Source of the DNA: a virus
Virus record (IMG/VR): IMGVR_UViG_3300037875_000491
Location: 1-50,338 of that record
Strand: one strand, 5' to 3'
DNA length: 50,338 nt
The stretch's first letter is position 1. Each line of letters starts with the position of its first letter. The notes beneath the pieces are model-generated. The model saw only the letters and a list, made by a program, of their open reading frames with translations. It was not told the origin of the DNA and did no database searches. The position numbers and the translations under genes were made by a program. This document shows positions 1-49,948 of this stretch, piece by piece.

Positions 1-3000
1 TAACTACGGAGGCCTTCAATGGTTTTCATCCCAAGACGGAAAGCCTCCTTCTGGGCGTTGCCCGAGATGGCGAGGATATCTTCTCCTTGCCCGCCGTGAG
101 TTAGTTCATGGGTGATGGTGCTTTTTACTCGTGCGTTTAGCAGGGAGAGGTCATCACGAGTGAAGGCGTCAGACAAAGCCACATCAACAACTATCATACG
201 CTGGCGACCGCCTTCGTCATCACCCATGCGAGTCTGACCAGATGAGGCAAACTTGCTGTCTTTGGCGAAGGCGGTGCTTGGCTCAACACCCAATTTTACC
301 ACAATAGCATTTACACCTTCGGCTTTGAGAGTCTCTGGAACCTTTGGCTGACCATAGCCGCCATAGCCAAAACCGTCTAAGTCATTCTTGTTTGCCCTAA
401 AGCGATGGGGAACTCTTGGTTCTCCGTCATAAGCATCTAGGTGTGCCGTAATCCTCTTCATTATCTCTCGTGATATTTGAGTGGCTTCATTCTCAAACTT
501 GGCTTCGTTGAGGATTTCTTCTTTTATCATTCTTCGGAGAATGTTTTGGATGCTTTCTTTTTGTTGCCCGAGAACATGATCAAGGACTTTCTTGCCCGCA
601 GCCGCACCTTGGTTGATTACAATCTGTGCGAAATTCTCCACCAACTCCTCTTCGTTCTCTGGGTTCGCTCCGTGAGCATCCACATAAGCGTGCCCTAGTT
701 CATGATATAGCGTCAAGGCGGCTTCTGTCTCGTCTTCAACTTTATCAGCAAGCACGAAGATGGGGGAAGCATAGGTTCCGTTGATATAGCGAGCGACATG
801 GTTATCTACTCCGTCGCCCTCGATGAACACGATCATAATGGACCCAAGTCCAAGTGCTCCAGCGAGTTCTTGAGCAGACCCAAAGGCCTCCTCATACGCC
901 TCCATAGACAGAAGGCTGGGGTCCTCGTTCGGAGCATAATCCCAAGCGGGGTGATACTCACTAGTGGAGGAGCCCATTTGATAATAGTCATCTACCTGCC
1001 TGAACCCTTCTGGCTCACCCATCTCCTCCTTGATCATTTGTCGGAGTGTGTTTTGGATGCTTTCTTTTTGTTGCCCGAAAGATGGGGCGTCAACGAAGAT
1101 GTCCTTTTTCGCAAAGGCGTCGTTGATGGCTTCTACTTTTTGCCTACTGATATCACCGTCGGAATACATCTTATCACGAACCTTCATCCACTCTTTAGCC
1201 ATATGAGTGAAGGTCTCTTTGGAGGCGATGTTATTATAGAGGGCATGCCAGAGCAATCCGGGGAAAATCTGACTGTAATTATAATCGTCAAAGATTTCGG
1301 GCATAACATCAAACAAGGTGCGAATGTGCTTATCCGTTAGAGACTTGTTCTTCCAGAGGTTCGCCATCAACTGACCGAGGTGACTGCCTTCGGGTCCGGA
1401 CTGTGCGTAGTCGGCGCTCCCCATAAAGGAGACTATCTCATCCATAAACTCTGGGGGTATGTTTTCCAGTTTGACTAAATGCTTGAGGGTTTTGAAATCC
1501 TTCTTGACCTCGGCATTTTCATCAAATATAATATCGGCTAATGCCTCATCGTCTATACTAGGATTGCCGAGGGCAGCGAGAGATCGGGCGAGAAGGTCGT
1601 CGGCATCATTGGCAAGTGCTCTCCCGAAGAAACCAGCCCACCTGTTGATCGTCTCGATTGGTGTGTTAGGATTCTTGAGGGCAGCAGCAGATGCCGAGAC
1701 ATAAGAGCCTCCGAGGAACATCTCGGCAATCTTAGCCAGCACCTCGGGTGGGGTATTTAAGTTTTTTCCTAATGCTAATTGGACGGTTTCATCAACCACC
1801 ATGCCGGCGGCGGCAATCTTTCCAAGTTCTTCCGAGGATATTCCGGGGTTGGAAGCGATGGCAGCAAGTATTTCGGAGTTATCATTCTTGATAGCGGTGT
1901 CTATATAGCCACGAAGAAGTTCCATCGGAACATTAGGATGTTCCAGTATCGATTCCATTACCTTGCCGGCTATTAGAGGATTGTTATCTGTTCTTTTTGA
2001 CGCAAACTTGAAAATATGAGCAAGCATTTCAGAGGTTAGGTTCATGTTGCCAGCGGAGTTGCTCGATCCATTAGGCCCGACACCCTCGATGGCATCGTAG
2101 AGTATATCCAGTGCGTCGTATTGGTCTATCTCTATCCCAGGAGATTTATCATCCTTGCCGATATCAGAAGCGAAGTCCTTAGTGAGTGCCTTGATTGCGT
2201 CCCATAGTTTTTCTTCGGGAGCGTTGGGGCTTTGGAGGATTCTGGTGACGGCAAGTTTGTTGTCGCTGTATAGCCGATTCTCAATCGTAGCAACATGTTC
2301 CAAGCCTGCTGTGCTCGTAAAGAAGCCTTGGCAGGTTTCGGCGTGATGAACAATGCCCCCGCACTCAATATCTACAACGGCTTCTATCCCCAAGGAGCGC
2401 AGGAGAGCGTTGGCGGTGATGGTCTTCTTCTTGCCGGAGACTTGATCCAGTTCTAACACAGCAGAGGTTGCCATGACAAGATCATATAGTTTTTCTGACT
2501 TAGAGGAGCCGCCGGTTTCACGATCTGATGTAACAGCATATCGCCGGATCGTCTCGGGGTCGGTCAGCCACTCGGCAGCGGAGATCTTTCTGGAGCCATC
2601 ATCTGTTCCTTCCCATTGAGGATCTATATCTCCGTCTGGGTCAAACTGGATAGTGGGCTCATTCAGGATGGGGTATGTTTTGGCAAACAGTTTCATCGCA
2701 GCCGCTGGGCTTTTGGCGGATGTGCCTGTCTTATCTGTGCCAAGCCACAAGACTTTATTGGGATTCTTGATTTTTAGAAGATGACCAAACTTTCTTTCTG
2801 ATGCGAATATCTGGTTTTTCTTTGCTCCCTGTAAGGTCTTGTCGGTGAAGTGCCACCCGTAGATGCCGGCAGGAGTATTGAAAGATGTGGTAGGGTTGAT
2901 GCCTACTTTGTTTAGATCAGAGAAGGTGATGAGATGATTCCCGTCACCGATGGCTTTCTTGATGATGTCAGCTTTTGGGTGTTTATCAATTCGAAGTTCT

Positions 3001-3053
3001 TCTTCTATGACTTCCGCAATCATCTCTTTTAATAAAGATTTGGTGAGTTTCAA
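1..3053 (-). CDS. Multidomain polyprotein with repeated N-terminal-type tags and two HExxH protease domains (3' end outside window)
   Basis: One frame stays open for 1017 codons to the window edge. I place the start at TTG 3053-3051: GAGGAAC lies about 8 bases upstream and the only upstream in-frame codon of note is the primase stop. Layout: tag MKLTKSLLKEMIAEVIEEEL (1-20); a domain with FNTPAGIYGW (58-67) and, near 217-250, VVD followed by GGIVHH, a pattern I associate with ADP-ribosyltransferase-like phage domains (tentative); helical repeats of NPNTP type (about 345-540); a second tag FGQQKESIQN...MIKEEM (659-678); a protease-like domain with HELGH (784-788) and acidic third-ligand candidates E803/E806; a third tag LGQQKESIQN...MIKEEI (828-847); a second protease-like domain with HELTH (982-986). 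The zincin calls rest on motifs. Head packaging and cleavage are inference. The C-terminus is not visible. Confidence 0.8.
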   Translation of the reverse strand, partial: MKLTKSLLKEMIAEVIEEELRIDKHPKADIIKKAIGDGNHLITFSDLNKVGINPTTSFNTPAGIYGWHFTDKTLQGAKKNQIFASERKFGHLLKIKNPNKVLWLGTDKTGTSAKSPAAAMKLFAKTYPILNEPTIQFDPDGDIDPQWEGTDDGSRKISAAEWLTDPETIRRYAVTSDRETGGSSKSEKLYDLVMATSAVLELDQVSGKKKTITANALLRSLGIEAVVDIECGGIVHHAETCQGFFTSTAGLEHVATIENRLYSDNKLAVTRILQSPNAPEEKLWDAIKALTKDFASDIGKDDKSPGIEIDQYDALDILYDAIEGVGPNGSSNSAGNMNLTSEMLAHIFKFASKRTDNNPLIAGKVMESILEHPNVPMELLRGYIDTAIKNDNSEILAAIASNPGISSEELGKIAAAGMVVDETVQLALGKNLNTPPEVLAKIAEMFLGGSYVSASAAALKNPNTPIETINRWAGFFGRALANDADDLLARSLAALGNPSIDDEALADIIFDENAEVKKDFKTLKHLVKLENIPPEFMDEIVSFMGSADYAQSGPEGSHLGQLMANLWKNKSLTDKHIRTLFDVMPEIFDDYNYSQIFPGLLWHALYNNIASKETFTHMAKEWMKVRDKMYSDGDISRQKVEAINDAFAKKDIFVDAPSFGQQKESIQNTLRQMIKEEMGEPEGFRQVDDYYQMGSSTSEYHPAWDYAPNEDPSLLSMEAYEEAFGSAQELAGALGLGSIMIVFIEGDGVDNHVARYINGTYASPIFVLADKVEDETEAALTLYHELGHAYVDAHGANPENEEELVENFAQIVINQGAAAGKKVLDHVLGQQKESIQNILRRMIKEEILNEAKFENEATQISREIMKRITAHLDAYDGEPRVPHRFRANKNDLDGFGYGGYGQPKVPETLKAEGVNAIVVKLGVEPSTAFAKDSKFASSGQTRMGDDEGGRQRMIVVDVALSDAFTRDDLSLLNARVKSTITHELTHGGQGEDILAISGNAQKEAFRLGMKTIEGLRS
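514..573. repeat. Direct repeat copy B encoding the internal tag
   Basis: This 60-base segment matches 1021-1080 at 51 of 60 positions without gaps. Bases 542-571 are identical to 1049-1078 over 30 bases. It encodes the tag that precedes the HELTH domain of the polyprotein. Confidence 0.85.
1021..1080. repeat. Direct repeat copy A encoding the internal tag
   Basis: This is the partner of 514-573, offset by 507 bases and in the same reading frame. It encodes the tag that precedes the HELGH domain. The exact 30-base core indicates recent duplication or recombination between the two tag copies, since similar residues alone would not require identical codons. Confidence 0.85.
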
Positions 3054-3065
3054 AATTGTCGTTCC

Positions 3066-4013
3066 TCATGCCATTAAAGCGATCTTGAATAAATAGGCGT
3101 CAGAATCAATAAACGGCGCTTTGTCTTTGCGCTCGTGGAATACATCCGGCGGCATCTCGCCAATATCTTTATGTCCTGAGGTGTCCATCAGGCGAACTTC
3201 TATATCGTAAGCCAGCAAAGCCTTCACAAGTTTCATGGCTTTCTTGTGAGCGTCGTTGTCCAATCCTAGCAGGACTGGTGTATCGTTCATTACTATCTTC
3301 CTGAAAAGTTTACTGTCTTCCCGTAGGGTTGAGCCGAGAAGTGGGATGCTGTTTTCGCCGGCAACGATTGCGTCAAAGACGCCCTCTACTAAGGTCACCT
3401 CTCGTTCCCAGTCAATCAGGAGTTCATTAAATATAATATCTTTGTTCCCTGGTCCGTTCAAATACGGAGGCCAAACGCTAGGATCATATGTGCGGGACGT
3501 GAAAAAGTTACAATAACCTTCGTCGTCGAATGATGGGAGAATAATCCTGTTTTTATATTCGCCGGAAGCGCAGAAGCCAATCTTCCAAAACAGAATGTCT
3601 TTCCCTACAACGGCACGTTTGCGGAGATAGTTTAGCGGGACTCTTGCAGATGCAGGATGAGTTCGCCCTGTAAGCGTTTGAAACTCATTTGGAAGGTCAA
3701 TTCGCTGGCTGGTTTCTTCTTGCTTCGCAAAGAGGTTGTCTAGGTCGCCTAACTCAATATCGGCGTCAAACTCTTTCCATCTATGGATGTGACTTACGTC
3801 ACCCCAACGCCTGACAAGGCGTCGTAAATTTTTGGTCCGCCAATCGCATGCCCAGCACTTGCCGACATTCTTGTCAAAGTTAACAGATAGTTTACGTTTG
3901 TGATGGCCGCAGCATCGAGAAGGATAAAGATATTCCTTGCCTTGGCGCTGAGCGCTGCCAAGGATTTCATCTAGGATTCTTTTCTTTTTGGCTGAGGCTG
4001 GGTCTTTGAACAA
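3066..4013 (-). CDS. DNA primase, zinc-finger plus TOPRIM type
   Basis: The 315-residue product resembles a DnaG/T7 gp4-type primase without a helicase domain. A zinc-ribbon candidate uses C35, H38, C53 and C56 (CxxH then CxxC). The TOPRIM signature is VEGVFDAI, with E210 and D214, followed by the acidic motif LDNDA with D252 and D254. Such enzymes make RNA primers for lagging-strand synthesis. The chain ends soon after the TOPRIM fold, so the replicative helicase must be encoded elsewhere. The start codon is TTG, directly abutting the TAA of the upstream phosphatase gene, which suggests translational coupling. The TGA stop lies 12 bases before the polyprotein TTG. The alternative, a TOPRIM nuclease, is less likely because of the zinc ribbon. 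Confidence 0.88.
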   Translation of the reverse strand: MFKDPASAKKKRILDEILGSAQRQGKEYLYPSRCCGHHKRKLSVNFDKNVGKCWACDWRTKNLRRLVRRWGDVSHIHRWKEFDADIELGDLDNLFAKQEETSQRIDLPNEFQTLTGRTHPASARVPLNYLRKRAVVGKDILFWKIGFCASGEYKNRIILPSFDDEGYCNFFTSRTYDPSVWPPYLNGPGNKDIIFNELLIDWEREVTLVEGVFDAIVAGENSIPLLGSTLREDSKLFRKIVMNDTPVLLGLDNDAHKKAMKLVKALLAYDIEVRLMDTSGHKDIGEMPPDVFHERKDKAPFIDSDAYLFKIALMA

Positions 4014-4619
4014 TTAGAATCCGTATTGCTGAAGTTGCTTAATCGTATTATCCACGTTGTTTGGATCATGTTTAATAGCGACGCCACCGCCTTCTCTGAA
4101 CTCGTTGACGTATTTGTCTCGGTCGTCAATCAGAAGACCTTGTTTTCCGTTGTGTTTCCCGTAGGACTTCTTGCTGTCAGCTAAGTTGACTTTTTCAGCC
4201 GGGACACCCAGTTCACGCTCAACCCACATCCGCTTGCCGACTTTTGAACCTTCAGCCATCGGGGCTGATAGAACTTCTAGTCCTGGGATGTCTTTAATGT
4301 AGTCCCATAATTTCTTTCCGCCGTTTTCCCAGCCAAGGTTGGCCCAGAGATCAACGTCGTTCTCCACGAGACGATACATATAATCTCGAATCCGTAGATT
4401 ACGAGATAGGCTGCCCTCTTGGTCAGAACGGGCAATATGCCATTTATTTATTTCTACGTCCCAACCGCCAATCTCTTTGGCTCCTGAGCGGGCAATCTTG
4501 TGAAGCGGGTGTTCTGGTTGGTGTTCCAGTTTCCTCATCATCTCATTCATGTATTTTAAAACACCGCCCTCAAAATTGACTAGGACGCCATCCATATCGA
4601 CAAACAGTTGATAACTCAT
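4014..4619 (-). CDS. HAD-superfamily phosphatase, 5'-nucleotidase-like
   Basis: The 201-residue protein has the HAD motif I VDMDGVLVNF near its start (nucleophile D8, acid/base D10), a motif II serine in LSAP (S118), and motif IV LLIDDRDK (D165, D166). This fits a Mg-dependent phosphohydrolase of the 5'(3')-deoxyribonucleotidase type, or another small HAD phosphatase. Its place among replication genes suggests nucleotide or nucleic-acid 5'/3'-end metabolism; the substrate cannot be read from sequence. I chose ATG 4619 because GGAGGGAG lies a few bases upstream. A GTG at 4640 would add seven residues but places the ribosome site inside the gene. The stop abuts the primase start. Confidence 0.83.
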   Translation of the reverse strand: MSYQLFVDMDGVLVNFEGGVLKYMNEMMRKLEHQPEHPLHKIARSGAKEIGGWDVEINKWHIARSDQEGSLSRNLRIRDYMYRLVENDVDLWANLGWENGGKKLWDYIKDIPGLEVLSAPMAEGSKVGKRMWVERELGVPAEKVNLADSKKSYGKHNGKQGLLIDDRDKYVNEFREGGGVAIKHDPNNVDNTIKQLQQYGF

Positions 4620-4641
4620 AACAGTATCTCCCTCCATCACT

Positions 4642-4669
4642 ATAATAGCACGGATTAGGAGATGGTCAA
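4642..4669 (-). promoter_or_regulatory. Candidate sigma70-like promoter before the HAD phosphatase gene
   Basis: On the minus strand TTGACC (4669-4664) is followed after 16 bases by TATTAT (4647-4642). Predicted initiation near 4635 would leave the ribosome site close to the 5' end of the transcript, which weakens the call. It lies in the only gap between the 122-residue gene and the phosphatase and primase genes. Confidence 0.4.
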
Positions 4670-4678
4670 GAAGTTTTT

Positions 4679-5047
4679 TTAATTTTCTTTTGCGTCAAGA
4701 TAGGCGGCGATGGCCATCTTTTGCTTTTTCTTTTTTGATTTGCCCTTGAATTGTGGGGCGTCGGAGGTGCGAAAATCCTTGACATATTCACCGGCTGTGG
4801 CATCCTTATCCAATTTTTCTTTAACCTGTAGTTCGATATTTTCTTCGCCCGGAGCAGGTTGTGAATCGTCGGGCAATTTAGCAACTGCGGCTCTGAGACC
4901 ATCAGCTACTTTCATCGCTTCTTCTTTTGGTAGTTGATATATCTGTTGCATCAAAGCTTGAACTTTTTCTTCCCTCTCGGAACCATCCATCTGTTCTTGC
5001 AATTGCTCTTTTATGAGATTTCGGATTATATCTTGTGTCAACTTCAT
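4679..5047 (-). CDS. Small tagged phage protein, N-terminus like the polyprotein
   Basis: The 122-residue protein begins MKLTQDIIRNLIKEQLQEQ, which resembles the first residues of the polyprotein at 3053 and its internal tags. The middle is charged and helical. The C-terminal part has FKGKSKKKKQKMAIAAYL, a lysine-rich stretch followed by a short helix that I associate with small proteins of uncultured marine phages. No enzyme motif is visible. The shared N-terminus suggests it goes to the same place as the polyprotein, possibly the prohead interior, and the basic segment could bind DNA; both are inference. It lies 15 bases after the resolvase gene, and I see no strong ribosome site. Confidence 0.75.
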   Translation of the reverse strand: MKLTQDIIRNLIKEQLQEQMDGSEREEKVQALMQQIYQLPKEEAMKVADGLRAAVAKLPDDSQPAPGEENIELQVKEKLDKDATAGEYVKDFRTSDAPQFKGKSKKKKQKMAIAAYLDAKEN

Positions 5048-5653: not shown

Positions 5654-7048
5654 TCAGAAGTCCATCTTTAATTTAAATGTAAAAGCATCTGATTCTTTCT
5701 TTAGGACCGGGTTTGCAAGTTTTGCTACAGCAATTAAGTTCTTGTCCTCATCGTAAATCCCAAGCTTACTGATGAAAACTTGTTTCTCAAAAGATTCTTC
5801 ATAGTTATGATATTCGCTCTGGATTGTGTTTTTTATAGGAACCTGCTTGGGCTCGATATAAGAAGCGCTATTGTAATAAGAAGTGTCTTGCCATTCAGCA
5901 TGAGAAGAACTTACCCAAGTAGGATTTTGAGAATTGTTTACTTCACCGGATTTTGCTTGGGCAAACATTGTTTTCGTTGGAACCTTGTTAGTACCTCGGA
6001 AACTCATGCGGAATAAACTTGCCGAGGGATAGTAATTTCTATTTTCCTGTGTTCCGTGCCTTTGTCCCAAGGCTCCTGATCGGTAAGATCCAAAGTACAG
6101 CCAACTAGCCACGTCCTGCTGGGCGACACCAGTTGAAACCCTAGTGCCAGTATATGCATCTCTAGCAAATTGGTTTGCTGTTGTGCCATCATTTGGTCCT
6201 ACCGGTGCGGAAGATGTCAAGAGAATAAACCCTTCATCATATAAAGCCATCCCAACGACAGATCCGCTGGCATAGCCCATGGTCGAAATCAACTCACCAT
6301 TTTTGCGAATATCTTTCGCCTCATCAAGCAACGACCCTGTATAATAAAATTTCAGACTTATAGAACCTTTTTCTATACCTGAGCCGAAAAAGATAGAAGG
6401 GATACTAATAAGATTTACAGACCCAGTTACAAGCCCAGAACCTATGTCTAGTCCCTCTGATCCCGTACCCACTATCGAATAATCATAAACGGGACTGTAT
6501 CTTTTATAATCGTTTATTGTTGTTCCCAGGGCTATCATTCTTTTTCTATATCGGAAATATAGATCGGTTTCTTGTTCCCTTGCTAAGTTGTCGTCGCCGA
6601 GTTCAAAGGAATCATGCTTTGTCGGGAGTGCATGGGGAAAGATATACTCTCTTGCTATGCTAGAGGTTAAAGGGTATGCTCCTTCTAAAAATGTTCCATA
6701 GTCTTGCTGGGCAGACTGTGCCGAGGTAATGTTTTTAAATGTATTATAGTTTCCATCTTTTACTAGGTACGATTGAACAGAATATGTCCAATTGTAGGGC
6801 GTGTCGATAGTTCTGTCACCGTCTGAATACGGGTAGGGACCGCTGCTCCCGAGATGTCCCGATAAGGCAGATATTCTATTGACATTTAATTCGTATAAGC
6901 TGATGCTGCCTGTGGGGATGTTACCACCCTTAAAGCTTTCGTTGTTAACATAGGTACTTCCACTATACATAGTGAAGTCATACTCTGGGTGTGTCTCCAG
7001 AGTGTTGTTGAATATGTCTTCTGAACCGAATTTGTGGAGGTATGACAC
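5654..7048 (-). CDS. Virion structural protein with shared C-terminal module (464 residues)
   Basis: The protein is rich in S, G, T, Y and N, as is usual for beta-rich tail or fibre components, with no enzymatic motif. Its last 41 residues, with GIYDEDKNLIAVAKL and a C-terminal KLKMDF, match the end of the 377-residue protein encoded just upstream (GLYSANNELLAVAKL, ending RVRLDY). The two are paralogues or share an assembly module. The start is GTG 7048 with a strong GGAGGTGG about 10 bases upstream. It is the last gene of the virion block and follows its paralogue by 12 bases. A baseplate- or tail-associated role is inferred from position. Confidence 0.8.
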   Translation of the reverse strand: MSYLHKFGSEDIFNNTLETHPEYDFTMYSGSTYVNNESFKGGNIPTGSISLYELNVNRISALSGHLGSSGPYPYSDGDRTIDTPYNWTYSVQSYLVKDGNYNTFKNITSAQSAQQDYGTFLEGAYPLTSSIAREYIFPHALPTKHDSFELGDDNLAREQETDLYFRYRKRMIALGTTINDYKRYSPVYDYSIVGTGSEGLDIGSGLVTGSVNLISIPSIFFGSGIEKGSISLKFYYTGSLLDEAKDIRKNGELISTMGYASGSVVGMALYDEGFILLTSSAPVGPNDGTTANQFARDAYTGTRVSTGVAQQDVASWLYFGSYRSGALGQRHGTQENRNYYPSASLFRMSFRGTNKVPTKTMFAQAKSGEVNNSQNPTWVSSSHAEWQDTSYYNSASYIEPKQVPIKNTIQSEYHNYEESFEKQVFISKLGIYDEDKNLIAVAKLANPVLKKESDAFTFKLKMDF

Positions 7049-7060
7049 TGGCCACCTCCG

Positions 7061-8194
7061 TTAATAGTCTAGTCTAACTCTTAGTGTGAACTCGTTAGAT
7101 GGTGTCTTTTTGAGCGGTTCGCTAAGTTTTGCAACAGCGAGCAGTTCATTGTTAGCGCTATACAACCCAACGGTTGTGATATAAGAGATTGGCTCATCTC
7201 TTCGTGACTCCTTAACCCTTATCTGACTTTGGGAAAGATAGGTTGGAGCGCTGCTATAGTTAAACTCGTTAGCATTTGCCCGGCAGAAATAAATGGTAGA
7301 ATTTAGTTCTGTAGTGTTAGTAAAATAAACATCTTGCAGTCGGTTTCGGATAGCGTCTGCGGCTCCGGAGATTGAAGAACTAACAAGAAGCCTTTCTACG
7401 CCCCAGCCGGCAGGTCCAGAAGAAGCGGTTGTCATAATAATCTGACCACCGGTTTCGTTGTTGACCATAGTGTTTTTACATATGCCACCACTAGCGACAA
7501 CCTTAAACAGAGAAGAAGTTAAAACCGCAATACCGGCTTGATAAAAGATAAGTCCGACAGCTTTTTCGCCCTCAAATGGTCTAGCGGTGTTTGCGCCGGT
7601 GTCGGCGCTTGTTCCTGTAGCATACAATATGTTATACTCACCGGCTGGTGAGTTTGTCTTAAAGCTATTTGTTGTGCTATAAGTATCTCTGACTCTAGCT
7701 GTTACTTCGGTGTGTCCAATTCCCGTACTTCCGGTTGGGTTGAGATTGAAGTCCATCCGGAAACTACCTTTTTGAATTTCATCTTTTGTCAACAACCTTG
7801 AGAAGTTAAAGAAGAAACATTCTTGTAGTTTAGATCCGTCCGATAAATCGCCGTCTTCGTCAAACTGTCGGATACTTCCTGTCTGATCGTGACCGACGAG
7901 AACTTGGGCCAGAGTGTTGTACATCTGAAGCTTCTGTCTGTTTTGCGTGCTTTTTGAACCGGATACAGCAGAGCCAGAAGAATATCCTACCGTAATATCA
8001 AAAATATGATTTGCCGAAGAGCTTAGGTATGGATAATCATACACACTCTGGAACATCCCATGGGAATAGTTTTTGATGTTTAGGTCGGAATAAGTTCCCG
8101 TAGTAATTGTTCCCGTGATCGGGATCGCTTCATGAAGTTTTGTTCTGGTCGCTTGTGTATCGGTGCCCAAAAGTGTTTTAAATGACGTAGCCAT
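7061..8194 (-). CDS. Virion structural protein with shared C-terminal module (377 residues)
   Basis: The protein begins MATSFKTLLGTDTQATRTKL and is rich in S, T and G. The middle (FFFNFSRLLTKDEIQKGSFRMDF) leads to a C-terminal module at about 336-377 with TTVGLYSANNELLAVAKLS and a terminal LDY, shared with the 464-residue neighbour. I have seen this ending in structural proteins of uncultured marine phages, without a settled role. The ribosome site is AAGGAAAAAAC before ATG 8194. It lies 11 bases after the 347-residue gene and 12 before the 464-residue gene, so the three are probably co-expressed and may form one substructure. Confidence 0.8.
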   Translation of the reverse strand: MATSFKTLLGTDTQATRTKLHEAIPITGTITTGTYSDLNIKNYSHGMFQSVYDYPYLSSSANHIFDITVGYSSGSAVSGSKSTQNRQKLQMYNTLAQVLVGHDQTGSIRQFDEDGDLSDGSKLQECFFFNFSRLLTKDEIQKGSFRMDFNLNPTGSTGIGHTEVTARVRDTYSTTNSFKTNSPAGEYNILYATGTSADTGANTARPFEGEKAVGLIFYQAGIAVLTSSLFKVVASGGICKNTMVNNETGGQIIMTTASSGPAGWGVERLLVSSSISGAADAIRNRLQDVYFTNTTELNSTIYFCRANANEFNYSSAPTYLSQSQIRVKESRRDEPISYITTVGLYSANNELLAVAKLSEPLKKTPSNEFTLRVRLDY

Positions 8195-17739: not shown

Positions 17740-20700
17740 TCAGAATCCGCCGCCGCCGCCAAAGTTACCTCCTCCGAAGTTACCTCCGCCGCCGCCACGG
17801 TTTCTGTTTCCGCCGCCGTTGAGGTTAACAACCATCGGAACTTGCAAGTTAAGATTAGGTACAAGACCTCTAGGTTGAATGTTTGGAGAAACAATTGGTG
17901 CTATGTTTACATTAGGAATTGGTGCTATGTTTACATTAGGAATTGGGGCTATATTTATATTAGAAATTGGAGCTAGATTTGGAATCAGCGGAAAGTTAGG
18001 CAACGAAGCTACTGATATAGGTGAAGGCAAACTGATGGGCGGTGGCGCAAATACTAAGTTTTGCATAATTTTTAGATCAGGTAGCAATAGACTTTTAGAC
18101 TTTATATTTTCGATATCAATATTCGGTTGAGGAGCCTTATTTATTGGGTTGTTTTCTCTCTTCTTGTCGAACTCTTCAACTTCTCGGGACAGTTCCGGTC
18201 GGAACCCAACCTTTGTACTAATTTTTGCAGACTCGATCAAGGAACAATAATCATAGGGCCAGTTGTAAGTATTTCTTCCTTGACCAAGTTCCTCTACATG
18301 ATATAATCCCTTGGTGTATATATTTTTTCTGTCCCGCAAAAAACGTTGATGTTCGGAGGGGATATCGTCGCCCACATATCCAAATATGTTATCGAACGCC
18401 AACGATCCGTGGCCTTCGTTAATCTCTTCTATCATCATTGTTGTGTAATCTGTCTGACCACGTTGTTTAACCTTGAGGATAAGCCATCTAATTTCTGGCT
18501 GGAACCCATCCTCGATACCCATGACCTCTGTGTCGATCAAATCAGGACGAGGGTGTCCGCTTCTGGGAAGTCCGAGTTCAAGCTCTTTTCTTAATATCTC
18601 AGGGAATACTGTTTCGACTTCCTCTGATTTTTCTCCTGGCATGTAGTGGTCAATGGCCGTCACGCTTGTCTTTAGCGACTTTCCAATGTCTGGCATAACG
18701 TTTTGCCACATATCTGCCAAATCTTGTCTAGACAATTCAACACTATGCTCCATCAAATAAATGATCGGTGCTTGATATAGATCGTTACCAACGAGCAATG
18801 AATCGTAGTCGTCACCACCAAAAGGATTTATAAGGTTTGAGGTCTTCGGGTAATTGGGCGGCAATAAATCTACCAACGATTTTCTTAGAGATGGGGGGAA
18901 AGAATATTTTGTAAATGCTCGTCTAAACTCTTTTATTTTTGGTCCCAAAGAATCATATGGCGCTTTCAACATCATGGAGCGCATCTTGTCAGACTCGCTG
19001 TCGTAATAATATGGTATTGCCAAAATAGCCTCAGACATTGTCTTTTCACTATCTTCAGCTAATTCTCCAATACGTTTAGCACGGGAAGGGTCCCAAGCAT
19101 TAGCCGGCATAATTTCTGTCTCATCAAACCCGACAAGGCTGGCCAAAGAAGCAATTTCTCGACCAGACCGAAGGACTGCCAAGGAAGCTTTCTTGCACGG
19201 TTTTACAAATCCTGTTGCCGTAGAGAAAGATCCGGCTGATCCTGTCGGGTTGCCGACCAGTCTAAACTCGGTAGACGCTTCATCTATGTCTGAAATGTAT
19301 AAATATATTCCCTCATTTTCTCTTGGCATAAGCCCATATTGGTGCCACATGCCCTTTGTTCCCATGTCAAAATTCCCCACCTCAAGACTTGATGAGAAAT
19401 TGTAAGGGTTTCCTGTTGGGTCCCCTGAGATGCCAGAGCCAGAGAAATCTAAAGTAGGGCATTCCCACTTGGGCATAATAACCCATTTGTTTGGGTCCAG
19501 CGGTTTTAGTTTAGAGCCGGCTTCTGACGGGAATAGATTATCAATTACTACAGATGCGTCCAAATCTTGACGGTTTTGCCATGCACGGTTCCATCCATAA
19601 AATGGAGTCCCGTGACAATCGACTAGTTCATTTTCTTCATTTGCAAAAGAGCCAGAATCAAAATCATAATAATATCCGTTTGAATTTAAATACTCAACAG
19701 ATACATCACTGCTGTTTAAGATCTGTGCTAAAGAAACTTCTGCGCTTGATTGGGGTGTATAGGTTATTCTTACCAAACTTGGTCCATAATAATATGTTGG
19801 GGTGAACGGCGCAAACTCTCCTCGGTGATATGGCCAGTTCTTTCCTTGTGGGTAAACTCCGCTGTCCACAGAAGATGTTGTTGCCGGAACGCCGCCGCCC
19901 TGCTGCGCTCCTATTTCCCAACCAAAAGACCCTGTTGAAGTAGGTGGACCAAAAGCATACGGATTATTATAAAGATTGAAATTATCCGTCTTCTTAAGAC
20001 CAATCTCCATGATATAAGCTTTAGTATTGGAAACTGCCATTTTGTTAGGATCAACTTGAGAAGTCTTCTGTACACCAGCGGGATCTGTTTTGGCTCCCTT
20101 GCTTGGAACTGATCCTACAAATTTTGTCATATATCCACCGGATTTTTTCTTCTTTAGGAAAAACTGCGGCACATTTGCTAAAAAGTTGGAAACAGACATT
20201 CGATACAAAAGGTCACTAAATGTTTTTGTGGTGCCCTGTGGGGTAAGTCTTGTTTCCGTTATTCCTTCAATTGCTCCAGAAACTTCTATGTACAGATTAT
20301 CATTAATATCAGAACAAACAACCCTTGATTTATCTGGTCCAATATGCTCTAAGGGTTTTAATATACCCTCGAATGGAATCACGTCGGACCAAAAGAATTT
20401 CATCGTATCGGGGTAGCGACCCCAATCAAAGTTTGTAAGATTTCCCTCGACCCTTCTCCTTCGATTTCCTGGCATCATACTCGGTACTGTTGCCTGATAA
20501 GCTGGGACGCCGATAACACTGAAACCGCCCACGCTCTGAGTGTGTTGCATGAGAACTCCACTAAGGCATCCGTGTAGCGGGGAAAAATAATTTGAGGCGG
20601 GTCCTTCGCCGGATCTAGATATGGAGTCTAGACCGCCGATGCTGGTAGTAGTGCCTGTAAGAAATTGAGCGCAGCCTTGTCCACCGTTAGCACCGAAGAG

Positions 20701-23700
20701 GCTTGCAGGTCCGCTGTGCAATCTAAAACGTCCCTCAACATAATACTGCCCGTTGAAGCCACTGCCGTCGGCTGACGCCGTCGTCGCCGAATAGCTCTCT
20801 CTTCTGATTGGGTATTGCACTCCTATACCAGATTTAATTGAATTGTATAAAATACCCGGAGCATAAAAAGGTCTCGATAAGATGCGCCACCGGGATGGCA
20901 AACTTGAAGAAGCAGGGACTTGTCGGGTGTCAGCGGAGGCATCGTACGAGGCGCTTGCCGCAAATAAATCTCCGCAGCCGCCGTAAAACTTGGCAAATGG
21001 TGCATAAGATTGCGAGAACAAAGTAGCTATCTGAAGAGTTCTGTTGACTGGGTAAAAACCATCATATGGCAGAAGTTTCATTATTGCTTTCGACTCTATC
21101 CCAAAATGACGGGGGCGTTTATTAAATTCACTATCTTTCGACCCTGGCGACATGAATGGTGAAAGATATTCTATTACATCCGTTGTTCCGTATCGTGGCA
21201 TAAAGTCGGCATGTGAGCCATTATAGACATTTTCACTAGCTCCGGTCAATTCAAAAGATGCCGTGACCAAAGCTGTTATAGAAGATAATTGGTCGTAGGA
21301 GGGTATCAGTTCGCTGATTCTAAACTCCGGAATTATGCTGTGGTCTTGTCCTTTTAAACGAACATCTTGGATATACTCTTCATACGTTTCATACATCGGT
21401 GTTCTAGGGGGAGCAAGTTTTGCTTTGTCTGCTCCATCAACAAATCTCCTCTCGCTTGCAGCGGTCCACGGTGGCATAGTTATTGCGCCGCCAGGTGCTC
21501 GGCGTTCTAAAAATACAGCGTAAGTATTGGGCTTAAGGGCTGGGTTTCCCAAATAAACTGTGCTTGTCCCAGACCTTAACGAAGGCACATTGTAAACGTA
21601 CTGGGAGCTATTAAGGCTTGATGTTCCGGGTATGCCGTTTCTCTCTTTCGACAGTTCATTCGCAGTTCCGCTGAGGACTCTTCCGTAGTGAGTCATCATC
21701 AACTCACCGGCTGCGTGGGTGCCCATGAAAGAACCAAGAACGTTAATGTCGTTAGAAGTAGATCCCGAAAAGTTTCTCTCTAAATAAGCCATACTAGCGG
21801 GGTCAGAAAAAAGATGAGAGTCTAAAGGCCACATAGAGCCAGTTCCGGGGGCATTTGCAACATTTTGATAAAATACAGGAGCCTGCTCGTCAAAACGAAC
21901 TGTGTACCCTTGTGATGTGATGAAAGGGGATACAAGTCTGTTGTGTTGACTGTTGCCTTGTCTGAGGTAGTCTATTGCGGGGGCTGTGTCGCTTGAATCA
22001 TCGAAAGGAATGAAGTTATATTCGTAGAGAGATGGACGATTGCCGGCGCTTATCTTTAAGGCATTTGGCAGAGTTACATCAGATATTTGAGTTGCTGCTC
22101 CCATGGTACCAGATATGTCATTCCTCCAAGAATCTTGAGAAAATGCAAGTCTCTGTCTAGTTCCAGAAAGATATGTGTATCTCTCTCGTGGGAATATTGT
22201 TTCCGAGTAAACCATCATTTTTATAAGTTCGGCACCCGTGGTGTTTCTTTGGACTTTATCTACATAATTGTCCCTAAGAACTTCGTATGGTCTTCTTATC
22301 TTTCCGGAATTATATCCAGCTTTTTCTCCAAGTTTTATATTTATTTCTTTGTTCGCAAATCCTTGGAGAAGGTTTCCGTAAGAATATTTTAAAGTAACAT
22401 CCACCTTATCATCATAATTCGTTTTCGCCGGAGTACCTCGTGTTGTTTCAATCTGGTGTATGATCGGCTTATAACGAGAAGTTATTGGGGGCTCAACGTA
22501 TCTCTCTGAAAAGCTTGAGGTTATAACACCCGTGAACCTGTCTGTGTAGTGCCGGCTTTTTGTAGACTCTTGCCAGCCCTTGGTGCTAGGGGTTGATATG
22601 AATCCCTTGCTTGAAGGTAGTCTCAAAATTCGTTTTGTTTCGTTGACTGGGGCGAATTCATAAACATTATTTTTTGCATAATAAACAGCTTCGGAGGATT
22701 GTGCAGCCCTTGTCTGGCTCCATGGAGCGAAGCCCCTATTATTGACCCATCTATAGTTTGGTTGCCCAGAAGATGCAGTGAATACGGATCCTATCGGATT
22801 CCGTTCGAACGCATCGCTTCCCAAGGTGAAGTCTACAAAATAGGAGACGAGGGGGGAGGTGGTCTGACCTGTTGTGCCGGCGATGCTTGTATTACCGGAG
22901 GTGCCAACAGCAGACTGTGTCAGGCTTATAGTAGGCCATTCCCCTAAGCCAAAATCTACGGAGGCTGCTGTGTTGGCCTCGATGCCGATTTCCCCGTAAG
23001 TATCCTTGGCGGCTCGTAAACAAACCAGTTGCGAATCTCTGATTGCCGCCAGTGTAGTTGTTGAAGCGCCCACACCCCAAGTATAATTTCTAGTTGAGTT
23101 TCTAGTAAAAGAGTTAAGGGCGATAGGGGAACCGGCAGTCGATGCTGCGAGTGTAAGGACCAATCCGGCAGAATCTGTCAGTATCGTAGTGCGTCCGTAC
23201 CACTCTGTGCGGTCGAGGCTAGCAATAGCAATCAGCCCAGCTTGTCCAACGGTGCCTGGTACAACTCCAAGAGAAGCAGTAACCCTGTATATATCAGATG
23301 GATACCTAGACCCCGAAAGCATATATTGTGAAAATGTCGCCGGGTTATCCGATCCGGATACCATGTCCTTGAACCAGTTTGTCCTGTCTGCCTGCGGTAT
23401 TGGTCTTGTTACAAAAGCGTTGTCATACTGATAGTTCTGCCGGTATAATTCATTATTGGCCCCACCAGAACCAACATGGTCGGTGGAGCCTATTACAACC
23501 CGGTTTGTTGCGTTTCTTTGTGTCTTGTGATAAGGAGATGCTTTTGCTATCTGCTTTGGATCAACCTGCATTGCTATTGGTGTAATCCCAGTAACTTCTG
23601 AGAGTTCTTCTGTAAAGTTTGTGCCTATAATTTGATCATCGAAATCATTTTTTCTCAGCGATACAATTACCGTAGTACTACCGCCAACAGATGTTGATGT

Positions 23701-26700
23701 GTTAGATAAAACTGTATACTTAAAAGGATTGGATAGACTACCCACCCAGGCGGTCAGACTTATAGATATCGCCATTGCTAAATCAACATCACCAGCACTA
23801 CCCGGACTTAAACCATTAATACCAATTTCAGTGGCGGTAGAATTTACTGTCAGCACAGTACTGTCAGTTTCTGCCTCGTACGCATCTCCGTCTGGTGTTA
23901 TGAATTGTAGAGGCTCTCCATCAGCAAATTGAGCATTTGATAAAAACAAGGACGCAGATGGATATCCAAATTGCTGTACCCCCTCATTTAAAAAATCAAG
24001 AGCTACCTGAGAGTTCGTATTGTAGGATGGTCCGGTGTAGGAAACAGTATCAGAATTGTATGGAGAGATTGGAGTAAAGTCACGCATTATCTCATCGCTA
24101 GACCCCGAGAATCCTCCCCAGTTGACATGGGCAGCCAGTTCTTTCAGGTAGGGCTTTCTCGTGTCAATATTTCTAAATGGTAATGCATTGTTCGGTGAAT
24201 ATTGATCCGAAGGAATATCCCTAAACTGTTGATTTGAATCGAATTTCCCGCCGGGAGAAGAAAATCGGTTGGTTATAACTGTTTTGTTGCGGCGCAATGA
24301 CCCAGAATGTTGATCTACGGCAGATCCGAAGGGGCCACGTTGTCTTGGGTTATAATAATCGGCAGATCCGCTTCTGTCAAGGGACATCATACTGATTGAT
24401 CTTAAGAATGGAGTTGGAATAGAACCAGTATAATAAAGATTATTATGGAATAAGAAATCCATATTCGCTGAGGAACGGTCAGAAGTTTGTAGAACTTCGT
24501 AATTCTCTGCAAAGTTTCCTATAGGGTTGACACCACCGGTAACGACACCATCTAGGTTTTGTAAATTTGTTCTTATGTTTGCAATATTAATGGGCGATGC
24601 TGCCCCCAGCGTTCTACGATAAGATCCTTTAGGGATGGTGCCTGTGACCAGCGACCGAATTCTTCCCTTAGTTGGGTTGGTTGCCAGAAACTCAAGAACG
24701 AAAGCTTCTTTGCGGTCAGACTGTCGTAGTGGTGAAACGTGTCTACTTTGCAACCCGCCAACGTGTTGGTAGGTAAATGGTCCCTGGAGTGTTTCTGCCG
24801 GTTCGTGCAGGTTTGTGATTATGGTGCCGGTCAGTCCATTGTTTGTAACATCTGCCATATAGCCAGTATCAACGCTTGAACTATACGCTGTGAATGGAAC
24901 CAATAACTCGCCACCATAAACTTCATTATCATTAGTAGCTGCAAATACAGTCTTTATTTTTACTTTTGGATCAGAGACATCTGTGGTGTCCTTGAACTCT
25001 CTAAAATCTCCAAAAGTTATATCTCTAATACTAGGATATTTATAAGTCCCAGGAGTTTGTCCAATTCCTTGGCTTTTGTATACAGAGCCACCAATCTTTA
25101 CAACCTTGCTGGCAGTTATTTCTGATTGTAATACGCTCAGAATTTGTTGCTTGGCGGCGTTTACGCCGGGGACCGAGGAGGAGATCGTCGGATTTGTTCT
25201 TTCGGCCTTATACTTCCACCAAAAAGAGTGTTCGTTTTCTTTTTGAGGAGAAGACGGTAATGGCGCTCTTGTTTCCGTATACCGAACAATCCCAGCTTGG
25301 GCACCGTAAGCCTGTTGAGTTAGCCCGGCTCTAGCCAATGGCTGTGATCCCATTGTCCCTCTTGCAAAATCTCCGCCAGGGGGGAACGTATTTTTTCTAT
25401 CCCCTAGAAATGTATATTTATATTTTGGTCGCTCTAAGAGATGGCTTTCGACAACAGTACGAACTCCTTCGGCATGAGGAGATGACGCTGGATATAATTG
25501 CTCAACGACATCTCCTATCGAGGAGTCTATCCATTTATAATAACTGACATACTTTTCTAGGTCCGGAATATCTCCTACCTTATTAAAGAATATCTGCCTT
25601 AGTTTTTCCATAGACTTATAATTCGGTCGATAAATATTTACCGGTTCGCCTATAAGATTGTTCATTTCTTCTATAGAAGCGAAAAGCTGGAGCATTCTTT
25701 TAGAAATGCTAGCATACATGCTTTTTTCTAGGGCATAATAATAATCGGTGGGGCGAGCGGACGGGGAGAACACATTCGTATCAGCCGAAACCACCGAGAT
25801 CATGTCTGTGCTTGAAGCATATTCAGGTAGTTGGGGCTCCTCTTTATAGACATACCCTTTTCTTACTGGGGTGGATGAAGCGACAAAGCTATCTCCACGT
25901 CCGGTATGTTGGCGTAGGTTTATATTGCTAAAGACTCCCTGGTATTGCCTATCATATGTATTTTCAGCGGAGCCGGAGGAACGATCCAAGACATTGAATT
26001 GTCCGCTTGGGTTACTTCCGGTAACATCTGCGAAGTCCCAGTTCAGTGCCAGAGTTTCAGCCCTAGGAATGTACATACCTGGGTTTCTTGCCTGGAATTC
26101 ATAAGCATCTCTTGTGGGATTTTGGCGACCATAGGTGTCAACTTCTTTAGCATGAAGGTCAACAGTACCCGTTGGCAGTAGATCCGACCAATATCTTAAG
26201 CTGCTTGCTTTAACATCCGAGTATGCTTTTACAGATCCTGTGAAATTAGTCTTATGAGCACCAACAAATAATCTTTTTGCCGACGTAACAATATTTGATC
26301 CACTAGGATAGTCTAAAGATAAAGTTGTCTGGAAGGCGTTCCTTTTGATACCGGTGTCATAGTTTACGCCATAGAAAGAAAGCTCATATCCATCGCTTAT
26401 GTCTATGAAGGAGCCCAGGATTCCTGTCGCAAGTTGATATTTTGTAGGGGTAACGCTTAAGGCAAAATTCCATTTTTGATTATCATATACGTTTTGAAAA
26501 ATACTGGAAGATGCTATGATTGCTCCATCTCGATCCTGCACGACGAAATAAGCATCTTTTACTTTCTCTGGGGGAGAAAATACTTCAGAAAAAGGAGCCG
26601 GTGATTTAATCGCACGAACTTGGAGCCCCCAATCTTGGGCCGTGCCGGTGACCGTGGTATGCGTGTTGTACTGTATCCCCGTAGATCCAGTTTCCGGAGT

Positions 26701-42376: not shown

Positions 42377-42562
42377 TTACTCGATCTCAAATTTTGGCGG
42401 TGATGGGGTGGACTTAAAAACTGGCGGATTCGTAACATGTACTTCGTCGTTTTCCACATGTAGATCCCAATCGGCGAGCAACTCAGTAATGTCTGCCTCT
42501 TCGGCCAGACACTTTTGCAAAGTCATTAAAAGTGCCCCGATAGCCTGGTTTGATAATTTCAT
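42377..42562 (-). CDS. Small phage protein (61 residues), unknown function
   Basis: The product begins [20 protein letters not shown], followed by an acidic segment ([20 protein letters not shown]) and a VTNPPVF ending. I recognise this type from uncultured marine phages, where it sits near the late sigma gene, without known role. AAAGGAG lies just before ATG 42562. The start shares an ATGA overlap with the GDP-mannose dehydratase gene, linking the sugar block to the regulatory genes. MKLS resembles the MKLT openings at 3053 and 5047 only in its first residues; the rest differs. Confidence 0.7.
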
Positions 42563-43566
42563 TTTTTTTCTCCTTTTACTTCATTGTTTAAAACTGCTTG
42601 ATAATCTGCATCAAACATAATCTTTGCTAGTTCTTTGAATTTTGTCTTAGGTTCCCAGCCCAGTTTTTCCCTGGCCTTTTGTGGGTCGCCAAGTAATACA
42701 GGGACTTCGTGTGGTCGAAATAGTCTTTTATCTATCTTCACATATTTGTCAATATCTAAATCGGCATGATTGAATACTTCTTCCAGAAATTCCCTAACCG
42801 AGTGGGTCTCTCCTGTCGCCACAACATAGTCATCAGGACTTTCTTGCTGTAGCATGAGCCACATTAGTTCTACATAATCTCCCGCAAATCCCCAGTCTCT
42901 TTGGGCGTCAAGGTTTCCAAGGTGTAGTGTACTCTGGAGCCCTAATTTTATTCTGGCGGCGGCTAAGGTTATTTTTCTAGTAACAAACGTTTCCCCTCGT
43001 CGGGGAGACTCATGATTAAATAAGATTCCGCTTGATATGTGCATCCCATAAGATTTTCTATAGTTCCGACATATGTTGTGAGCGAAAACCTTAGCGCAGG
43101 CATAGGGTGAAGCCGGCATCAGGGCGGTAGTTTCCGATTGTGGAATCGAAGGGTTATCACCAAACATTTCTGAAGAAGACGCCTGGTATATTTTTGCGTT
43201 TGGGACAACAACTCTAGCAGCGTTTAGAATTCTTAAAGTTCCCATTACGATGCCTTCTACGGTATGTTCTGGAATATCAAAAGAGACCCGGACATGTGAT
43301 TGGGCTGCTATGTTATATATTTCGTCTGGCTTGTATTTCATAAGAAGACTCCAGATAGCCCCACCATCATTCAAGTCATAATATTCTAAAATCAAATTAG
43401 GGTTTCCAAAAACGCTATCGATTCTATCAGTTGTTATAATTGAGGTTCTTCTCTTCAGCCCTATAACACGATAACCTTTTTCAAGTAGAAGCTCTGCAAG
43501 ATATGAGCCATCTTGTCCAGTTATTCCGGTTATCAGAGCAGTTTTATTGTTTGTTGTACCAGTCAT
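42559..43566 (-). CDS. gmd: GDP-mannose 4,6-dehydratase
   Basis: The 335-residue extended SDR converts GDP-D-mannose to GDP-4-keto-6-deoxymannose. Diagnostic features are the NAD(P) loop [12 protein letters not shown] (14-25), SSSEMFG (130-136), the active pair Y155/K159 in YACAK, and [16 protein letters not shown] (about 184-199), which is typical of Gmd. The start is ATG 43566 ([14 protein letters not shown]); a longer frame to 43614 would overlap the Fcl gene further and adds no conserved residues. It overlaps the fcl stop by about 23 bases. Together the two genes make GDP-L-fucose from GDP-mannose, for sugar transfer to surface polysaccharide or virion glycans. The alternative product, GDP-rhamnose, would need a different reductase. 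Confidence 0.93.
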
Positions 43567-44440
43567 ATGTCTCTTTAAATCCTTTCTTGAATGAAGTAAA
43601 ATTATAATCCCCAAATATTTTAAGAAATTCTTTGTTACTTCCGTCTTTCCTATATTGCCCGTCTAATTTGTTATTGTATATAACACTTATTTTTTTGTTA
43701 GTAATGTTTTTTGCCTCAAATACCATATCATTTATCGAAATATTCTCTGGAGGTGTCACTAATAGAGGCTTAGATGAGTTATGAAGAATGAGTAACTCTG
43801 GAATGAGTTCGGCCAAGTCCTCAACATACAGTTGCTGCCGAAGGGGGGTTCCCGTGCCCCAAAATTCTAGAACGTCGCCGTTTTTTGCTTCAGACATTTT
43901 TTTAACTAATGCTGCAACAAAGTGAGAACGATTACTGTCATAACAGTCGTGTGGCCCGTATAGGTTAGAAGGGCAGAATGTAGAATAATTTAACCCATAT
44001 TGTTTTCTATATGCGAGTGTTTGAACATAAAGCATTCGCTTAGAATATCCGTAAGAAAAGTTTGTAGAGGCTGGTGGTCCCGAGAATATATCTGCTTCCT
44101 TGAACGGATATTCATCAACTGTATTCGGGAAAGCACAAGTGCTTAGGCAGGAAAGAATTCTTGTCACACCAACTACCCTTGAGGCTTCTAGGACATTGGT
44201 GTTCATGGATACGTTTTTGTAAAAAAACTCTCCTTGTTTGGCTGCGTTCTCTTTTATGCCGCCGACAATTCCAGCCAAGTGAACAATTGCATCTGGGTTT
44301 ATCTCTCTAATAATCTTCTTGGTCGCAGAGTAAGAAGTCAAGTCGCAGTCCGCAGAGGAAAGGTATACCCAATCTGGTTTTACTTTTACGAGGCTTTTAC
44401 CTAAAAAACCTGTACCTCCGGTTACTAAAACTGTGCCCAC
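43544..44440 (-). CDS. fcl: GDP-L-fucose synthase
   Basis: The 298-residue SDR epimerase-reductase shows GGTGFLG (8-14), the SCLSTCAFP segment, Y130GYSK134 as the catalytic pair, [21 protein letters not shown], and [17 protein letters not shown], all typical of GDP-fucose synthase (WcaG/Fcl). It epimerises and reduces the Gmd product with NADPH. The start is GTG 44440 with AAAGGGG upstream. It lies 5 bases after the cupin gene and overlaps gmd by about 23 bases, so the two enzymes are coupled. Family members are usually about 310-320 residues, so this one is complete but slightly short. Confidence 0.92.
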
Positions 44441-44445
44441 TTGCT

Positions 44446-44811
44446 TTAGTCCCCTTTTGTCACCCGATAACTATCGCTATCAAAGTGTTGAGTAGAAAAC
44501 TCAAAAAGCTCAGAATCTTCTGTTGCTATCATCTGGTGTCGGAGTCCTACTGGAATATGGAAGTTATCCCCAGGGTTTAGAGTCAGTGTTTGTGCCAGGC
44601 TGAGGTCGTCGTCAGTTCCAAAATGAATAGTCATTTGCCCGGATTGAAGATAGAATACTTCATCCTTTATTTTATGAAAATGCCAAGAGCAACGCTTACC
44701 CTTGCTGAAAAACAAAAGCTTTCCGCAATATTCTTCTTTGTTTACAATCCAGCGCTCCCAGCCCCAGCCTTTGGGGACGTGGGTCATTTCCAATGAGTTG
44801 TCATTTACCAT
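44446..44811 (-). CDS. Cupin-fold protein, sugar-metabolism type
   Basis: The 121-residue single-domain cupin has metal-binding residues H44, H46 and E51 (HFHKIKDE) and H92 (GDNFHIPVGLRHQM). The pattern resembles the C-terminal domain of type II mannose-6-phosphate isomerase/GMP enzymes and small sugar isomerases. With Gmd and Fcl next to it, a role in GDP-mannose or mannose-phosphate supply is plausible but inferred. The N-terminus (MTHVPKGWGWERWIVNKEEY) is typical of such proteins. It overlaps the upstream SDR gene by 7 bases. Dioxygenase-type cupins cannot be excluded from sequence. Confidence 0.8.
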   Translation of the reverse strand: MVNDNSLEMTHVPKGWGWERWIVNKEEYCGKLLFFSKGKRCSWHFHKIKDEVFYLQSGQMTIHFGTDDDLSLAQTLTLNPGDNFHIPVGLRHQMIATEDSELFEFSTQHFDSDSYRVTKGD

Positions 44812-45629
44812 ACCGTTTTACCGCCGTCAATCACCATGTTCTCTCCGGTCATGTAGGAGCTAGCGTCAGAGCATAAAAATGCTATTGCGGCTTTATACTC
44901 ATTGATATCGGCCATTCTTCCCATAGGGATAATATTTGACAACTTTTTAACAAACTCTTCAGGATGATCATTAAAGACCCCGGTTGGGCTTAAGCAATTG
45001 ACACGAATATTTTTGTTAGCAAAATAAACGGCTAAGTATTTTGTCATACCAATAATCGCCCACTTTGCGGCGGAATAGGTAATCGGTTTAACATTTTGTG
45101 AATCCTCTGGAATGCCAGGCTTGCGGTATATTCTTTGGTCTGGTGCGATCACACCCAAGTCAGAAGAAATATTTAAGATAACCCCTCCACCATTTTTGAG
45201 CATTTTATTAGCTGCTACCTGAGAGCACAGGAAAGTACCATTTAAAGCTGCGTCAATACCTTCTGCCCAATATTCTTCAGACATTGTTTCAAACCTTGAG
45301 TCAGGCTTGAGTCCGCCGCCTTTTTTGACCTTTGGGTCCTTGGCGGCATTGTTGACCAAAATGCTTATTTCGTTATATCTGGAGAATACTTCTTGGATTG
45401 AAGACTTACTTGTGACGTCCATATAGTGTGCTGTAGCCGAATGACTACCGTAGGTTCTGTTTAGGTGCGCCGCCTTTTCTAGCGCTCTATCTTCGTGGTG
45501 GTCAGTTAGCACAACTTTGGCACCGCACTCTATCAAAGCCTCGGCATGTTTTGGTCCCAACAAACCCCCAGCGCCGGTTATCAGCGCAGTTTTGCCGGAT
45601 ATATCAAAATAATCATGCACTCTTCTCAT
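44805..45629 (-). CDS. Short-chain dehydrogenase, PtmA-like
   Basis: The 274-residue classical SDR has the cofactor loop TGAGGLLGPKHAEAL, NNAAKDP, a serine in ILNISSDLG and the YSAAK catalytic pair. The GGLLG...HAEAL form and VLTD helix end resemble PtmA of Campylobacter flagellin modification. The ATG at 45629 is preceded by AAAGGATTTATA; the longer frame to 45731 lies inside the isomerase gene and lacks this. The gene sits between a TIM-barrel isomerase and a cupin, and follows the CMP-sugar synthetase and aminotransferase, so it probably belongs to a keto- or deoxy-sugar pathway. The sugar is unknown. Confidence 0.85.
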   Translation of the reverse strand: MRRVHDYFDISGKTALITGAGGLLGPKHAEALIECGAKVVLTDHHEDRALEKAAHLNRTYGSHSATAHYMDVTSKSSIQEVFSRYNEISILVNNAAKDPKVKKGGGLKPDSRFETMSEEYWAEGIDAALNGTFLCSQVAANKMLKNGGGVILNISSDLGVIAPDQRIYRKPGIPEDSQNVKPITYSAAKWAIIGMTKYLAVYFANKNIRVNCLSPTGVFNDHPEEFVKKLSNIIPMGRMADINEYKAAIAFLCSDASSYMTGENMVIDGGKTVW

Positions 45630-48031: not shown

Positions 48032-48062
48032 TTGTTTTTAAATGCTCCCGATCGATGCCTAG

Positions 48063-49942: not shown

Positions 49943-49948
49943 AAAGAC

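Follow-up and report, generated by a model that had tools for sequence, protein, structure and literature searches.

We analyzed a 50,338-base virus fragment from IMG/VR (IMGVR_UViG_3300037875_000491), referred to here as the window, and in particular its multi-unit, multi-tag open frame P0001; the record holds no sequence past the window. P0001 carries three related tags of about 20 residues, one at the N-terminus and two inside the chain, together with two protease-like units that contain the motifs HELGH and HELTH. We consider it likely that in P0001 a T4-type marine myophage carries its head-cargo island in fused form, the chain being targeted by its tags and cut by a gp21-type prohead protease and the cargo being injected. 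The identity of the tags, the modularity of the frame, the fused and separate versions of the island, the prohead protease of the relatives and the enrichment of the [IL]-x-E motif can be read from sequence.

The open frame P0001, its tags and its units

P0001 (3..3053, minus strand) reads from 3053 to 3 as 1017 stop-free residues, to which the residue numbers below refer. The start codon is TTG, preceded by AGGAACGACAATT (AGGAA upstream). We considered and rejected reading the partial last codon, TA? at the edge of the window, as a stop; TA? aligns to Tyr, and the separate HELTH homologs extend through GVRGYYASESE, about 100 residues past the edge of P0001. Because these homologs continue, P0001 more likely runs on with TA? 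as Tyr, and the 3' end of the gene is probably located past the contig edge. The initial annotation had described a single frame with three tags and two HExxH domains (HELGH and HELTH), and this description was confirmed.

Tag 1 (LKLTKSLLKEMIAEVIEEEL; residues 1-20, 2994..3053, minus strand) contains two candidate I-x-E sites, IAE14 followed by V and IEE18 followed by E, and its sequence has an internal rather than N-terminal position in the relative G009. Tag 2 (GQQKESIQNTLRQMIKEEMGE; residues 660-680, 1014..1076, minus strand) is internal and has no start codon in the start position, and tag 3 (GQQKESIQNILRRMIKEEILNE; residues 829-850, 504..569, minus strand) ends in a predicted cut between LNE850 and AKFE. 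We scored the tags with a profile built from the N-terminal tags of other contigs; the start codon (M-K-I) does not count in the score, since the profile is limited to columns 4-18. Tags 1, 2 and 3 scored 12.9, 11.3 and 12.4, respectively, compared to a median of -10.7, a 99th percentile of 3.0 and a maximum of 10.4 for the top-scoring window when P0001 was shuffled 2000 times. The first 27 bases are identical between tags 2 and 3 and the DNA upstream of each is unrelated, so they resemble duplicates of a single cassette. Of the ten [IL]xE triplets in P0001, six fall inside the 63 tag residues, which amount to 6% of the protein (p about 1e-5 for an even spread). A fourth tag is located at the start of the second tagged gene of the window (MKLTQDIIRNLIKEQLQEQM...; 4679..5047, minus strand), which has tagged homologs in G001 and G017.

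The HELGH unit (residues 681-828, 570..1013, minus strand), with its motif at residues 784-788 (690-704 of the window), is metallopeptidase-like and matched DUF4344 at 1e-4, below the cut-off. In L258 it corresponds to a tagged gene of its own, whose product (MKLLLENWKKFLNE followed by EKEFKQVDDYYEI...) is 65% identical over the core and 56% overall, carries an N-terminal tag of a second class, and is homologous from behind that tag to the start of tag 3 of P0001. The L258 homolog gave a weak match to the phrog_87 metallo-protease (1e-4). The HELTH unit (residue 851 on, 3..503, minus strand) is cut by the contig end; its motif lies at residues 982-986 (96-110 of the window), and its metallopeptidase likeness comes from motif and homology only. 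It is homologous to separate tagged proteins of about 275 residues (MKLIMEQWRGFLQE followed by GRYEAATTELTRK...) in G001, G004, G007, G017, L259 and L264. The P0001 sequence ILNE, followed by AKFENEATQISRE, aligns with these proteins (FLQE before GRYE against ILNE before AKFE), and the alignment keeps L-x-E in register despite the different tag class. Elsewhere, both protease-like units that the initial annotation placed in the frame are encoded individually, and each then bears an N-terminal tag. The separate HELGH gene of L258 lies beside a tagged-gene cluster (463-4885), one protein of which reads as kinase-fold-like with no Pfam match.

Unit 1 (residues 21-270, 2244..2993, minus strand) has a counterpart in G009 with 80% identity across residues 7-129. 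In G009 the tag of unit 1 is internal and follows a further module of about 750 residues, all in one 899-residue frame. The differences between the two versions of unit 1 at codon positions 1, 2 and 3 number 24, 10 and 59, as expected under protein-level selection. The ADP-ribosyltransferase (ART)-like domain tentatively proposed in the initial annotation, which would fall at residues ~21-270, found no support: unit 1 matched no Pfam family even at E=10, its single-sequence structure model reached a pLDDT (predicted local distance difference test) of 35, and a search for its relatives found none. Unit 1 is followed by helical NPNTP-type repeats (1077..2243, minus strand) with a weak match to LRV_2 (leucine-rich repeat variant; 7e-5, below the curated cut-off).

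Tagged islands, leader classes and the prohead protease

The primase-like gene beside P0001 (3066..4013, minus strand) is 88-92% identical in G001, G004, G007, G009 and G017 and marks the edge of the island. Directly downstream of it, an array of individual tagged genes is present in G001, G004, G007 and G017 and includes HELTH, ART-PolyVal, GNAT and ParB-like proteins; in the window and in G009, a fused frame takes up this slot. Three tags share one frame in G005 (1720-2907), the last with ACG where the separate G001/G017 copy has ATG. Frames with two tags also occur in L103, L111, L113, L146 and others, and some of their internal tags are without a start codon. Gene fusion in tagged islands has evidently occurred repeatedly.

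The tagged proteins of the relatives include ART-PolyVal (PF18760, 6e-15) and GNAT acetyltransferases, both above the cut-off, as well as weak matches to a LigT-like phosphoesterase and to ParB-like domains. ART-PolyVal and GNAT had no Pfam match in P0001 itself and were seen in tagged genes of relatives at the same locus. Proteins of these kinds are among the effectors predicted to be injected (PMC5512222, PMC9503650). The ART-PolyVal and GNAT matches in relatives agree with the earlier proposal that the tags accompany effector-type proteins.

We scanned IMG/VR with a degenerate nucleotide pattern encoding M-K-[IL]-T-x-x-x-[IL]-x-x-[IL]-I-K-E-E and recovered at least 120 stretches, many with clusters of two to four tagged genes only a few kilobases across; a control pattern with the tag codons in scrambled order recovered 0 stretches. 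A separate scan for an internal-tag DNA pattern gave 7 stretches, none with such a tag in a reading frame, and tblastn of 20-22 residue tag consensuses against INPHARED gave no match, the queries being too short. Places scoring above 9 on the tag profile numbered 11 in G005 and 13 in G017, compared to an expectation of 0.0 from shuffled G017 frames. The tags occur N-terminally on many unrelated proteins, and in P0001 two of the three are internal. The 261-residue frame of L111 that starts from 11250 has a tag-like sequence at its extreme C-terminus (ENKKSKLKRIIKEELKNL) as well as one at its N-terminus. T4 Alt is processed at both ends.

T4 gp21 cleaves after L/I-x-E (PMC9026906). Among the matches listed, we extracted 117 tags of this first class, and [IL]xE follows the KEE part in 66 of 114, compared to 33.5±3.5 expected from column-wise shuffling of residues between sequences. 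None of [IL]xD, [IL]xK, [IL]xQ, [KR]xE, [ST]xE and [VAF]xE is enriched behind the tags. A second leader class, MKxLLTEWRKFLxE, occurs on other proteins of the same genomes; [IL]xE is present in 38 of 46 candidates, which were collected without requiring the site, and the residue after the E is highly variable. The tags are a real and widespread class of N-terminal leaders.

When contigs of at least 100 kb were chosen by tag pattern alone, 12 of the 13 had, among the matches listed, a gp21-type prohead protease (Peptidase_S77 / phrog_207). As controls we used contigs reached by chance pattern matches, namely four contigs of at least 100 kb from the 7 stretches without an in-frame tag, and the protease was present in one of them. 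The relative G005, whose baseplate gp6-like protein is 63% identical to that of the window, encodes such a protease next to portal-like and scaffold-like proteins and a capsid protein of the gp23 type, in which an L-x-E precedes the mature-like region; the capsid protein of G017 matches T4 gp23 at 3e-4. The N-terminus of a small gene product (MKKSELKNIIKECVKEVIFEEG...), encoded between protease and scaffold, scores 14.2 on the tag profile, and the tag may imitate a head-core protein. The T4-like role first suggested for the tags is supported in part: they form a genuine leader class, followed by the gp21 motif, in phages with a gp21-type protease.

The tagged protein MKLLMENWRKFLKE, continuing as GITDVVYHYT..., has homologs with other leaders in isolated phages. 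The leader is MKIDNLYESLLE in Alishewanella phage Slickus01 (L274, OQ508957; leaders at 87264-93266), where it or a close variant is found on six genes nearby. It is MIKLKSLLQE in Microcystis phage Mel-JY01 and MKKFNEFANELAE in Vibrio phage K566. These leaders end in [IL]xE, and all three phages encode a gp21-type protease. The homolog in Dickeya phage JA29 is untagged and the phage had no gp21-type protease match; Salicola phage SCTP-2 has the protease and a homolog without a clear leader, and Flavobacterium phage immuto, cultured on strain LMO8, has both tagged genes (gp080, gp094, gp095) and a prohead protease. In Slickus01, a phage cultured on Alishewanella sp. SMS8, several adjacent genes with the leader MKIDNLYESLLE encode ART-like (YHxT-type) and kinase-like proteins.

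Proposed mechanism and alternatives

In the proposed mechanism, each tag (M-K-[IL]-T-K-x-x-L-[KR]-x-I-I-K-E-E-L..., ~20 residues) would be a T4-like capsid-targeting sequence: it would form an amphipathic helix, attach the chain to the core of the prohead and terminate in an [IL]-x-E site. Cleavage at the tag ends by the gp21-type protease of the phage would release into the head interior unit 1 together with the repeats, the HELGH protein and the HELTH protein, and these products would be injected alongside the DNA to act on the host. We infer, and have not read from sequence, that the chain docks, that it is present in the virion and injected, and that it has host targets; cutting of P0001 at its internal tags is probable. 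A more far-reaching version, for which we see about even chances, is that P0001 is a polyprotein whose several tags dock one precursor, which the prohead protease cuts into effectors delivered in a fixed ratio, and that the interchangeable leader classes form a general code predicting the injected proteins of many T4-type phages.

Several observations weigh against the proposed mechanism. The 50-kb window had no match to a prohead protease, which the initial annotation had suggested looking for in the rest of the genome and which we found in relatives only, and the 135-kb contig G020 has tags and no detected match to the protease; the difference between tagged and control contigs (Fisher p = 0.02) comes from a small control set. 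No full-length homolog of P0001 was found in IMG/VR or INPHARED, and no search gave a function for unit 1. [IL]xE does not directly follow 48 of the 114 tags, and I-K-E and I-A-E within the tags could reflect helix composition. The structure model of residues 650-1017, in which the tags are short predicted helices of low confidence, has a mean pLDDT of 52, too low to decide on independent folding of the tags; a fold search with it returned nothing at E <= 0.001, and the best matches were uninterpretable. The 27-bp repeat of tags 2 and 3 lies near the contig end, which leaves an assembly join there a small probability.

We evaluated the possibility that the tags target the protein with no internal cutting, in which case the N-terminal tag alone would be removed, a single polyvalent protein would be injected and the internal tags would be relics of fusion. 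Polyvalent proteins such as the N4 virion RNA polymerase offer a precedent for uncut packaging (PMC5512222), and once-separate genes are documented here as fused. However, the L-x-E of tag 3 stands exactly at the position of the separate homologs, the tags concentrate the [IL]xE sites of P0001 as described above, and one unit boundary coincides with the ends of a separate gene, which makes this alternative unlikely. We regard it as improbable that the HELGH or HELTH unit, or both, cut the chain as zinc protease-like enzymes and that the tags only target it. Such self-processing would fit the two HExxH units in a single chain, with their weak metallopeptidase matches, and Iyer et al. proposed autoprocessing by the metallopeptidase domains of polyvalent proteins (PMC5512222); however, the HExxH units of relatives are small genes of their own with only their tag to release, and the tags are followed by the gp21 motif (PMC9026906).

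The tags are short and, in a low-confidence prediction, helix-like, as would suit oligomerisation or docking helices that have no relation to the head, but the co-occurrence with the prohead protease, the enrichment of [IL]xE and the tag-like protein of the head module make this very unlikely. The joining of separate tagged genes through the 27-bp repeat as an assembly artefact, suggested by an exact repeat less than 1.1 kb from the contig end, is extremely unlikely given internal tags without a start codon in the start position, no stop before either of them, and independent fused multi-tag frames on other contigs.

Elsewhere in the window, the adjoining genes at 5654-7048 and 7061-8194 are virion-type and appear to be paralogs with a common C-terminal segment (~24% identity in cross-matches among relatives). 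An open frame of 3691 residues (17740-28815), glycine-rich at one end, is flanked by tail-type genes. A gene run at 42559-50337 (minus strand), judged from reading the sequence only, is of the sugar-nucleotide/surface-polysaccharide type and includes epimerase/dehydratase-, cupin-, short-chain dehydrogenase-, aminotransferase- and acylneuraminate cytidylyltransferase-like genes.

Relation to known systems

Head proteins that enter the host with the DNA are known for very few phages, and a single gene of the P0001 type may bring in several enzymes directed at the host. Leaders that are recognisable, interchangeable and end in a protease site would make it possible to predict from sequence the likely head cargo of many uncultured marine phages, candidate anti-defence enzymes included. 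We found no description of targeting or cleavage tags at internal domain boundaries in the open-access literature, which was the scope of the search, and within the same literature a precursor with several leaders would be a viral polyprotein strategy not found described for tailed phages.

Phage P1 DarB is a large head-packaged protein that is steered by its N-terminus, of which 30 residues suffice for a reporter (PMC9024508); DarB has a single N-terminal signal, whereas P0001 has several tags, internal ones included. The head propeptides of SPN3US and phiKZ involve several prohead-protease cuts per protein, as proposed for P0001 (PMC10052503, PMC9026906), but these repeated cuts remove propeptides and do not separate functional units, and the phiKZ motif is S/A-x-E. 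The polyvalent proteins of Iyer et al. (2017, PMC5512222) combine several disparate domains in one phage protein with predicted injection, and their repertoire of ART, GNAT, ParB-like and zinc protease domains resembles in part that of the tagged proteins of the relatives. P0001 itself may compare with them through its two HExxH units and LRV-like repeats (a weak match), unit 1 having no family match. The part of that source consulted here proposes processing via embedded metallopeptidases or an assemblin-like domain and does not describe boundary tags.

One of the closest parallels is the T4 system of capsid-targeting sequence, gp21, Alt and IPI-III (PMC9026906), which shares a short N-terminal leader and the L/I-x-E cleavage motif with P0001 and a gp21-family protease, a gp23-like capsid protein and effector-type cargo with its relatives. 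The leader sequences differ, the phages analyzed here have many more tagged genes per genome, and their tags also occur inside one chain, one before each unit. By analogy, the arrangement of P0001 would work like the T4 capsid-targeting system and the polyvalent proteins.
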